Shown piece after piece: positions 20,464 to 22,219 of a stretch of DNA of 22,622 nt. Positions within the stretch are counted from its first letter, which is position 1. Every line of letters begins with the position of its first letter. The notes under the pieces are model-generated. The model was not told the origin of the DNA. It ran no database searches and saw nothing but the letters and a program-made list of their open reading frames with translations. Source of the stretch: a virus; the IMG/VR virus record IMGVR_UViG_3300025168_000726, positions 1-22,622 of that record; one strand, given 5' to 3'. Made by a program: the position numbers and the translations under genes.

Positions 20464-20644
20464 ACTATATCTCCTCTTTATAAATCACCTTTAACAGAAA
20501 AATATTTTACAGGCAAGTTATTATTCTATGTTACTCGATAAAGAACCAAAGACATTATTATCTTTTATCGAGCTTTGATGAGATAATTGTGAGTGCTAGG
20601 GATTATATGGCGAGAGGTATGGGAGTTTTACCCCACCCCCCTCT
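20464..20644 (-). promoter_or_regulatory. Gap downstream of small terminase with 9-bp inverted repeat
   Basis: This 181-base gap has no gene I can support. It contains CTCGATAAA at 20534-20542 and its exact inverse TTTATCGAG at 20564-20572, with two further pairs allowing a one-base bulge, around a 16-base AT-rich loop. Neither side is followed by a T tract, so it is not a standard terminator. Location next to small terminase fits a packaging recognition site, a regulator-binding site or an mRNA structure. The 3' part carries the ribosome site of the 414-residue gene. Confidence 0.4.
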
Positions 20645-21010
20645 TTATGATAAATCTATAGAGACAGATATATCGCCAGCATGAAGATGCATATGCTTGT
20701 CAGGTGCTTTGAATCCAGCTCTGTCCAGTATATCCTTGCTCGCTTCGAGTTGAACATACTCACTCTTGGCTGAATCAGTAAGGGTTAGAAGTCTATGTAC
20801 AGCTTTAGTAGCACCAAATCCTAGAGTATCTTTAATATGTTGCATCATATACTCTTGCACATGTGGTTGCTTCAAAGCCTTGCTAGCTGTCACTCTGCCC
20901 GACTCGCCTTTTGCATATCCAGCTATTTGTGATGCTTCTCTTATCGTACAGCCATGTGCTACGATGGTATCAACAAGTTTAGTTTGTTTTGATGTAAGTT
21001 CTCTACTCAT
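20645..21010 (-). CDS. Terminase small subunit
   Basis: A 121-residue protein. It starts MSRELTSKQTKLVDTIVAHG, followed by a helix-turn-helix type segment TIREASQIAGYAKGESGRVTASKALKQPHVQEYM (residues ~22-55), the classic layout of terminase small subunits ('lT.kQ...v......g....eAa..AGya......A.r.l..p.V...l'). A second helical part follows, with DTLGFGATKAVHRLLTLTDS and YVQLEASKDILDRAGFKAPDK. It recognises the packaging site and loads the large subunit. It is the first gene of the minus-strand operon. The ribosome site is weak (AGG immediately before ATG), and the leader from the proposed promoter would be only about ten bases. Confidence 0.9.
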   Translation of the reverse strand: MSRELTSKQTKLVDTIVAHGCTIREASQIAGYAKGESGRVTASKALKQPHVQEYMMQHIKDTLGFGATKAVHRLLTLTDSAKSEYVQLEASKDILDRAGFKAPDKHMHLHAGDISVSIDLS

Positions 21011-21027
21011 CCTAGCTATATATTTAT

Positions 21028-21055
21028 AGTATAATAATCAACAGTCAATAGTTAA
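21028..21055 (-). promoter_or_regulatory. Candidate sigma70-type promoter for the late operon
   Basis: On the minus strand TTAACT (21050-21055) and TATACT (21028-21033) are separated by 16 bases, matching four and five of six consensus positions. Transcription would begin around 21021, about ten bases before the small terminase start. A TTGACT also lies here but its spacing to TATAAA is only 14. The area is AT-rich, so chance matches are likely. Confidence 0.35.
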
Positions 21056-21087: not shown

Positions 21088-21117
21088 TAGGTTAGATTAG
21101 GATAGTTTAATATAATG
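21088..21117 (+). promoter_or_regulatory. Pentameric TAGNN tract ending in TATAAT, candidate promoter
   Basis: Six consecutive five-base units start with TA: TAGGT, TAGAT, TAGGA, TAGTT, TAATA, TAATG. A perfect TATAAT sits at 21111-21116. No good -35 hexamer lies 16-18 bases upstream, so if this is a plus-strand promoter it may rely on an activator bound to the periodic tract. Confidence 0.3.
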
Positions 21118-21136
21118 ACTGCTCAATTTCATCAAT

Positions 21137-21228
21137 GGGAAAAAGCTCCCTCCACACCATACCCAAGAGCCTCCACTTTATTCCCATGACGAAAGGTTTC
21201 TCCCCCAAATGCTTCCCATTTGGAGAAA
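21137..21228 (+). other. Inverted repeats in the divergent control region
   Basis: A hairpin at 21197-21228 pairs TTTCT with AGAAA, CC with GG and AAATG with CATTT around a CTTCC loop, with three extra Cs bulged. Upstream, ATGGGAA (about 21136-21142) has an inverse TTCCCAT at about 21181-21187, and a second TTCCCAT lies in the later hairpin, so alternative pairings exist. No T tract follows. The stretch is C-rich on the plus strand, unlike its surroundings. Confidence 0.4.
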
Positions 21229-21280
21229 GCCTAAGAGCAGTAATTATATTCCTATATGTAATTTAAAAGGAAATTGTGTA

Positions 21281-21568
21281 ATGCAAAAAGACATATCATA
21301 TAAGTATAATAAAACACGCTTTGCTAAGCATCTAGTAGAATGCATAATTTTATCTGCGATGCATACGTGGCAGTTTTTATTACGCTCATATATGTGTCTG
21401 TGGCTCATTCAGTCGCGCACATTCGCTTACCACAAACAGTCTAAAGTCAAGAGGTTTCTTAAAGTGCAGAAACATATTGACTGTAGCCTTGAGGTTTGTG
21501 GGGGATTGGTAGTGCCACGTTGTATAACACAATATGGTATATATATTAACTTAACAATGGAGACTTAA
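21281..21568 (+). CDS. Doubtful small ORF overlapping a structured leader
   Basis: From ATG 21281 (AAGGA nine bases upstream) a 95-residue frame, MQKDISYKYNKTRFAKHLVE onward, runs to a TAA placed directly before the next gene's ATG, which would suit coupled translation. The frame is also open further upstream to 21209. Against it: from about codon 25 on, codon endings become G/C-rich unlike neighbouring genes, no family is recognisable, and the same bases form long inverted repeats. I think the inverted repeats are the real content and the frame may be accidental. Confidence 0.25.
   Translation: MQKDISYKYNKTRFAKHLVECIILSAMHTWQFLLRSYMCLWLIQSRTFAYHKQSKVKRFLKVQKHIDCSLEVCGGLVVPRCITQYGIYINLTMET
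21365..21520 (+). ncRNA. Candidate structured leader RNA with nested helices
   Basis: Helices seen on paper: outer ACGTGGCA 21365-21372 with TGCCACGT 21513-21520 (8 bp, perfect); CCACAAAC 21430-21437 with GTTTGTGG 21494-21501 (8 bp, perfect); ACAGTC 21436-21441 with GACTGT 21479-21484; GTTTC 21454-21458 with GAAAC 21469-21473. An alternative hairpin GTGG 21498-21501 with CCAC 21515-21518 would break the first two. The element ends about 50 bases before the ATG of the 177-residue gene, so it is likely a cis-acting leader. I match it to no known RNA family. Confidence 0.45.
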
Positions 21569-22102
21569 ATGACTAAACAAAACATACAAACTCAAATAGA
21601 AAACGCAGTAAAACAAGAATCAGCTAGTTTAATTGAAACACAAGCTCAAACTTATGTCGAAAACTACATATCTGAATCTTCATATACAGCTTATGAGGAT
21701 GGTCTTGGTAAACAAACCAACACACAGTTTATTGATGAAGAAGGTTTGATACCAAACCCTTATTGGAATTTAGATGTTCTATTTAATGTAGGTGGACAAT
21801 GTGAACAAGCAATAAACAAAGCTGATAGAGCAATAAAGACTCTGAATACTGCTCAAACACAACTAGATGAATACCCACAAAGAATAACTATAGATGTTGC
21901 TATATGCAAATATACAACAGCATTGTCAAGACGATACTATTGGTTTGCTGTTTGGGAAGCATGTTATGGTGAAGAATTTTGTATGGTGCGATACAATCAA
22001 CTAAAGGTTAACTTCAATAACAGAGATAATAACCCTGTTACTACCGAATCATTTATAGATGTTTCCTCTAAGATAAAGGTCGTAAAAGACAATACTAAAT
22101 AA
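21569..22102 (+). CDS. Unrecognised 177-residue early-region protein
   Basis: No family recognised. GGAG lies six bases from the ATG. The N-terminus is Gln/Glu-rich and probably helical (TKQNIQTQIENAVKQESASL), the middle has NPYWNLDVLFNVGGQCEQAINKADRAIKTLNTAQTQLDEYPQR, suggesting a helical hairpin, and the latter part is rich in aromatics (RRYYWFAVWEACYGEEFCMVRYNQL). There is no signal peptide or membrane span. It is the first convincing gene of the plus-strand cluster, follows a long structured leader and is closed by a strong terminator, so it is probably a separately controlled single-gene unit, perhaps a host-takeover protein. Confidence 0.75.
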   Translation: MTKQNIQTQIENAVKQESASLIETQAQTYVENYISESSYTAYEDGLGKQTNTQFIDEEGLIPNPYWNLDVLFNVGGQCEQAINKADRAIKTLNTAQTQLDEYPQRITIDVAICKYTTALSRRYYWFAVWEACYGEEFCMVRYNQLKVNFNNRDNNPVTTESFIDVSSKIKVVKDNTK

Positions 22103-22117
22103 CCAACTCCCAAACTG

Positions 22118-22152
22118 AGCCTAGTATTTCATTATACTAGGTTCTTTTTTTT
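22118..22152 (+). terminator. Rho-independent terminator
   Basis: A stem of CCTAGTAT (22120-22127) with ATACTAGG (22134-22141) around TTCATT, extendable outward by three pairs including one G-U, is followed directly by TTCTTTTTTTT. It lies 15 bases after the stop of the 177-residue gene and should end that transcript. Confidence 0.93.
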
Positions 22153-22172
22153 ATGCGTATTACTAAAAATTT

Positions 22173-22189
22173 CGCGCGCTTACGCGCGC
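22173..22189. repeat. GC-rich hairpin GCGCGC-ttac-GCGCGC
   Basis: A six-pair GCGCGC stem (22174-22179 with 22184-22189) with a four-base loop lies in otherwise AT-rich DNA, 21 bases after the terminator T tract. A second hairpin, TTATGC (22193-22198) with GCATGA (22207-22212), follows. No T tract follows either, so these are more likely protein- or RNA-level signals than terminators. Confidence 0.5.
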
Positions 22190-22219
22190 AAGTTATGCCT
22201 ATACAAGCATGATGTGTTA

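Follow-up and report, generated by a model that had tools for sequence, protein, structure and literature searches.

The inverted repeats at positions 21365-21520 of the 22,622-nucleotide stretch of viral DNA analysed here (the window) are one domain of a longer, strongly self-pairing element, a 558-nt noncoding stretch (the leader) with the minus-strand gene for the terminase small subunit (TerS) on its left and the first plus-strand gene on its right. We see an even chance that the phage early operon has a structured 5' leader RNA and that the span forms its 3'-terminal domain, a reading suggested by predicted folds and by comparison of relatives. The original prediction of a cis-regulatory RNA leader of an early gene stands in part: a structured noncoding leader does precede the early operon, and the proposed switch and ribosome-site control are not borne out. 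The features on which the argument draws are as follows.

20645..21010, minus strand: TerS, divergent, left border of the leader (phrog_2538, E 2.6e-11; Pfam Terminase_2 just under the cut-off).
21028..21055, minus strand: sigma70-like promoter towards TerS, TTAACT-16-TATACT (site 9/12, not above chance in the window).
21108..21250, plus strand: module A, a predicted three-way junction (z −6.06; same shape, different stems in relatives L083, L085 and L110).
21146..21174, plus strand: C-rich loop CTCCCTCCACACCATACCCAAGAGCCTCC of module A, 29 nt, on the second arm of the predicted junction, with two CCTCC (anti-Shine-Dalgarno-like) words.
21365..21520, plus strand: module B, the last domain before the ribosome site (z −3.36; positional counterpart in L083).
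21559..21562, plus strand: Shine-Dalgarno GGAG of the first early gene, read from the sequence and unpaired in the best fold (in context).
21569..22102, plus strand: first gene of the early operon, 177 aa, without known family, with a weak relation to the first genes of 17 relatives.

Late genes (tail fibre, T7-like internal virion proteins, terminase) lie on the minus strand of the 22,622-base record, and plus-strand genes occupy the right end of the window. The nearest named phage is Pelagibacter phage EXVC031P Hodr, whose terminase large subunit is 66% identical. The operon that lies downstream in Hodr carries genes for an anti-restriction protein, a RecE-type exonuclease, a single-strand binding protein (SSB) and RusA, all of them early phage functions. 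Hodr infects SAR11 (Pelagibacter), among the most abundant bacteria of the ocean. Its entry, OQ414635, bears the GenBank name EXVC031P Hodr and locus tags reading EXVC032PBaldr, a mismatch in which one name or the other is probably an error. The first early gene lies 3' of the leader in every locus and evolves fast; its products in the relatives, proteins of 120-230 aa without known family, form a few groups with weak relation to one another. A direct IMG/VR search with the window's own first early gene (21569-22102) returned no relatives.

All four inverted repeats reported for the 156-nt span are present, the outer at 21365-21372/21513-21520, the inner at 21430-21437/21494-21501, and the smaller ones inside. 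The predicted folding energy of the span is −52 kcal/mol (z −3.36), a stability equalled by none of 200 dinucleotide shuffles, and the reverse strand reaches z −3.82. The window contains five nested pairs of perfect repeats of at least 8 bp versus a mean of 3.4 in 30 shuffles, a count near chance, and the repeats alone are therefore unremarkable. Chance as the origin of the structure was rejected on folding, homologues and covariation, the two 8-bp repeats by themselves still being near chance. Within the predicted fold the inner hairpin dominates, with best-partner probabilities of 0.86-1.0; the outer 8-bp helix is the sole uncertain one, because 21368 has a local competitor partner (probability 0.52). 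Protein-type conservation of the overlapping frame 21281-21568, the outcome that the original prediction had set against an RNA, was not seen: Pfam and PHROG gave no match to the frame, and tblastn found no relative.

Searching IMG/VR with TerL and TerS yielded about 155 loci, 84 of them distinct and with enough sequence upstream of TerS, and 66-70 leaders, that of Hodr included, were analysed. The relatives carry a self-complementary leader of 300-1400 nt at the same place, between TerS and the first early gene. Mean z was −7.0 and −6.9 on the two strands of 66 leaders, with few shuffles and with the window's leader entered shortened; in a controlled run 57 leaders averaged −5.8, and coding stretches from these loci −0.67 and −0.35. 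A closing helix of at least 10 Watson-Crick pairs, taken as the score after mismatch penalty over a span of 80-350 nt ending at most 110 nt from the start codon, occurs in 69% of 70 leaders versus 3.6% of shuffles, and the window's own best closing helix scores 8, below that threshold. Few of the leaders can be aligned with one another and nearly all are self-complementary; the sequence therefore turns over while the pairing stays.

Where alignment succeeds, compensatory changes run throughout the aligned clusters. For one subfamily of four phages (L009/L152/L012/L134), 22 of 42 consensus pairs have changed on both sides, a number matched in none of 500 shuffles, and paired cells drop from 95% to 30-44% in slid controls, a contrast partly built in since the structure came from the same alignment. 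Junction letters, AAGGATCATG and CAGTAGCTT for example, are conserved between variable stems. The compensation looked for as a mark of a selected structured RNA thus exceeds both shuffled and slid controls in the relatives' leaders, as the original prediction had expected of them; for module B no alignable relative was found among the leaders. Its counterpart in L083 is 159 nt long versus 156 and ends 42 nt versus 48 nt before the start codon, with z −3.39 versus −3.36 and a different sequence, and so supports module B by architecture, not by covariation.

Two observations concern the records themselves. IMG/VR contigs of the clade frequently stop 19-90 nt upstream of TerS, as do ten of the incomplete ones (L015, L025, L036, L039, L059, L077, L084, L092, L104 and L137), as if assemblies broke where the hypervariable leader starts. 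The TerS relatives L246-L250 come from metagenome bins labelled Euryarchaeota, Rhodobiaceae and Gammaproteobacteria, and are most likely phage contigs that binning assigned to an organism not their own.

Separate domains make up the leader; the window has first a three-way junction, which bears a C-rich loop, and then the terminal domain. The former, module A, was absent from the original prediction; it is stronger than module B and is the most structured of 225 segments of 150 nt on both strands. Its predicted closing helices pair 21109-21116 with 21243-21250 and 21118-21124 with 21235-21241, and enclose hairpins at 21135-21187 and 21195-21231. Alignment of module A across the relatives with MAFFT failed because the stems differ, and single folds were therefore compared. 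The C-rich loop is kept in 11 leaders whose stems are unrelated, and hairpins with this loop were seen only beside this TerS clade; a search of viral_contigs with a second loop pattern gave 77 stretches, mostly chance.

The original prediction saw in module B two exclusive folds, with GTGG and CCAC pairing in place of the two 8-bp helices, and took their position close to a ribosome site as typical of a cis-regulatory RNA. Forcing that pairing costs 11.5 kcal/mol (−48.6 versus −60.1), so that two folds of similar energy, as a bistable riboswitch would have, are not found in module B. The Shine-Dalgarno sequence of the window is free in the best fold, and across the clade the Shine-Dalgarno region is paired no more than other places are, its complement within its own leader being no longer than elsewhere. 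Several leaders do pair their Shine-Dalgarno perfectly with an arm 170-300 nt upstream that changes in step with it (L016 versus L033, L009/L152). Since the ribosome site is not preferentially paired in the clade and is free in the window, masking is at most one use of the structure. The proposed absence of any known riboswitch or phage RNA was confirmed, Rfam 15 (GOLLD and ROOL included) giving no match at the gathering threshold in the window and 12 relatives; below the threshold, the best hit is to a nematode snoRNA (E 2.1) and is due to chance. A riboswitch-like bistable element controlling the ribosome site is favoured by the position of module B, 48 nt before the start codon, and by the long helix that captures the Shine-Dalgarno in other leaders; set against the energy of the alternative fold, the free Shine-Dalgarno, the lack of general enrichment of its pairing and the missing Rfam match, we consider it very improbable.

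Transcription signals give the leader its left boundary. The TTGACA of the TerS promoter is kept in 77 of 84 loci versus 3 in shuffles, and AGTCAA at 21043-21048 takes its place in the window. This conserved promoter lies between the leader and TerS, and the leader therefore falls outside the TerS mRNA. On the plus strand, no sigma70 promoter above shuffles was found in the leaders of the clade, and on the minus strand no promoter cluster other than that of TerS was seen. A search of 8 records for PF00940 (T7-type RNA polymerase) gave no match, a weak result since the control genomes gave none either. The two largest virion proteins have matches to T7-like internal virion and transglycosylase families, and no virion RNA polymerase is among them.

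Ending just before the ribosome site and starting beyond the TerS promoter, the element is suited to be a 5' leader RNA. The early mRNA would then begin with the leader as an untranslated part, and folding of the leader may set the translation, processing or protection of that mRNA. Candidate contact points are the C-rich loop, with its CCUCC words, and in some subfamilies the base-paired Shine-Dalgarno; the fast turnover of the sequence would be in keeping with evasion of some host or competitor factor by which the leader is read. The constant position, the z of the leaders, the compensatory changes, the conserved junction letters, the shared fold of module A, the early genes of Hodr, the upstream arms that change together with the Shine-Dalgarno in several leaders and the place of the TerS promoter support an RNA leader. 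Against it speak the depletion of G-U pairs, the lack of a plus-strand promoter, a ribosome site that is not preferentially paired and the unalignable module B.

The depletion of G-U pairs affects both strands of the folded leaders (6% versus 14%, and 10.5% versus 19%, in shuffles). E. coli rRNA and RNase P RNA, folded in the same way, are enriched in G-U on the sense strand, and the tolerance of G-U on the functional strand that a structured RNA should show is not seen in the leaders. Taken with the absence of a plus-strand sigma70 promoter, the depletion on both strands keeps hairpins at the DNA level a serious rival. The palindromes would then act or arise as DNA, as hairpins in single-stranded or supercoiled DNA where a site of replication, recombination or packaging adjoins TerS, or through arms continually perfected by template switching, and the fold of the transcript would be incidental. 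G-U is nearly absent from the conserved helices, no consistent strand preference appears, the ribosome site is not singled out for pairing, and the leader adjoins TerS, beside which the packaging sites of other phages lie. Domains that are nested and branched, and whose junction and loop letters are conserved, look RNA-like, however; in some leaders the helices stop just before the ribosome site and co-vary with it, and the L009/L152/L012/L134 subfamily does have some G-U pairs. We regard action at the DNA level as possible but less probable than a leader RNA.

Other readings assign the structure to the opposite strand or to a folded promoter. Among the 155 interruptions of long helices, A-C accounts for 46 and G-T for 12 on the plus strand, and A-C there is G-U on the minus strand, which also folds equally well; both observations speak for a structure that belongs to a minus-strand RNA, either a late leader or one antisense to the ribosome site of the early gene. 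The excess of A-C may instead reflect a C-rich, G-poor plus strand, and the conserved minus-strand promoter starts between the leader and TerS with no other cluster seen, so that this origin appears unlikely. The least probable of the readings weighed is that anti-defence genes are driven from a folded single-strand promoter like Frpo of plasmids, to which similar downstream genes (anti-restriction, SSB) and strict Watson-Crick pairing lend some likeness. Sigma70 boxes inside folded helices occur on the plus strand in 4 of 65 leaders versus 1 of 65 shuffled, no clear excess, and the Frpo-type promoter was rejected on this test of −35 and −10 boxes; tailed phages, moreover, inject double-stranded DNA.

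Several known systems resemble the leader in part. The put sites of phage HK022 are structured RNAs of early leaders, through which RNA polymerase becomes resistant to termination, and they resemble the proposed leader RNA in being noncoding, folded and placed where an early operon begins; put is about 70 nt long with two hairpins and a conserved sequence, whereas the leaders here are 300-1400 nt, branched and hypervariable. A terminator-like hairpin (22117-22144) 3' of the first early gene bears on a candidate put-like antitermination. GOLLD and ROOL are large ornate RNAs (PMC12286853). Like the proposed leader RNA they are very large, structured and noncoding, and they are partly associated with phages, but the window's leader has no Rfam match, stands directly before a gene and belongs to a family of far higher sequence turnover. 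The plasmid Frpo/ssi elements are single-strand promoters (PMC11541004), like the leader in being a folded noncoding stretch before anti-restriction and SSB genes, and unlike it in that −35 and −10 boxes in leader helices are not above shuffles and the phage DNA is double-stranded. The manA and wcaG motifs and other marine or cyanophage 5' UTR motifs (PMC2864571) are likewise structured 5' UTR candidates from marine phages, with other genes downstream, and Rfam gave no match for the window's leader. A literature search returned nothing on leaders of this kind in pelagiphages, a result that does not prove their absence from the literature.

We tentatively suggest, with somewhat less than even confidence, that the leaders are phage nucleic-acid structures of a new class, very large and hypervariable, in which position and pairing are kept across an ocean-wide clade, sequence is almost wholly replaced and wobble is avoided, and which would be either an arms-race leader RNA or an array of DNA hairpins that controls how infection begins. 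A structure at a fixed place and as large as a kilobase, evolving faster than the adjacent proteins and avoiding G-U, would point to a new large regulatory RNA or a DNA-level signal. We know of no account of how SAR11 phages like Hodr switch on their early genes, and Hodr, an isolate with a named host, makes direct testing possible.

Two further places drew attention. On the plus strand, 22117-22191, after the first early gene, ranks second in the window for structure, with two strong hairpins, one of them the T-tailed, terminator-like hairpin mentioned above and the other GCGCGCTTACGCGCGC. Many of the 84 regions upstream of TerS carry a pair of G tracts (AAAGGGGGGGATTACAGGGGGGG, minus strand) immediately beyond the −10 region of the TerS promoter, where the late mRNA is expected to start; the window has a related C tract at 20630-20646, just past TerS.
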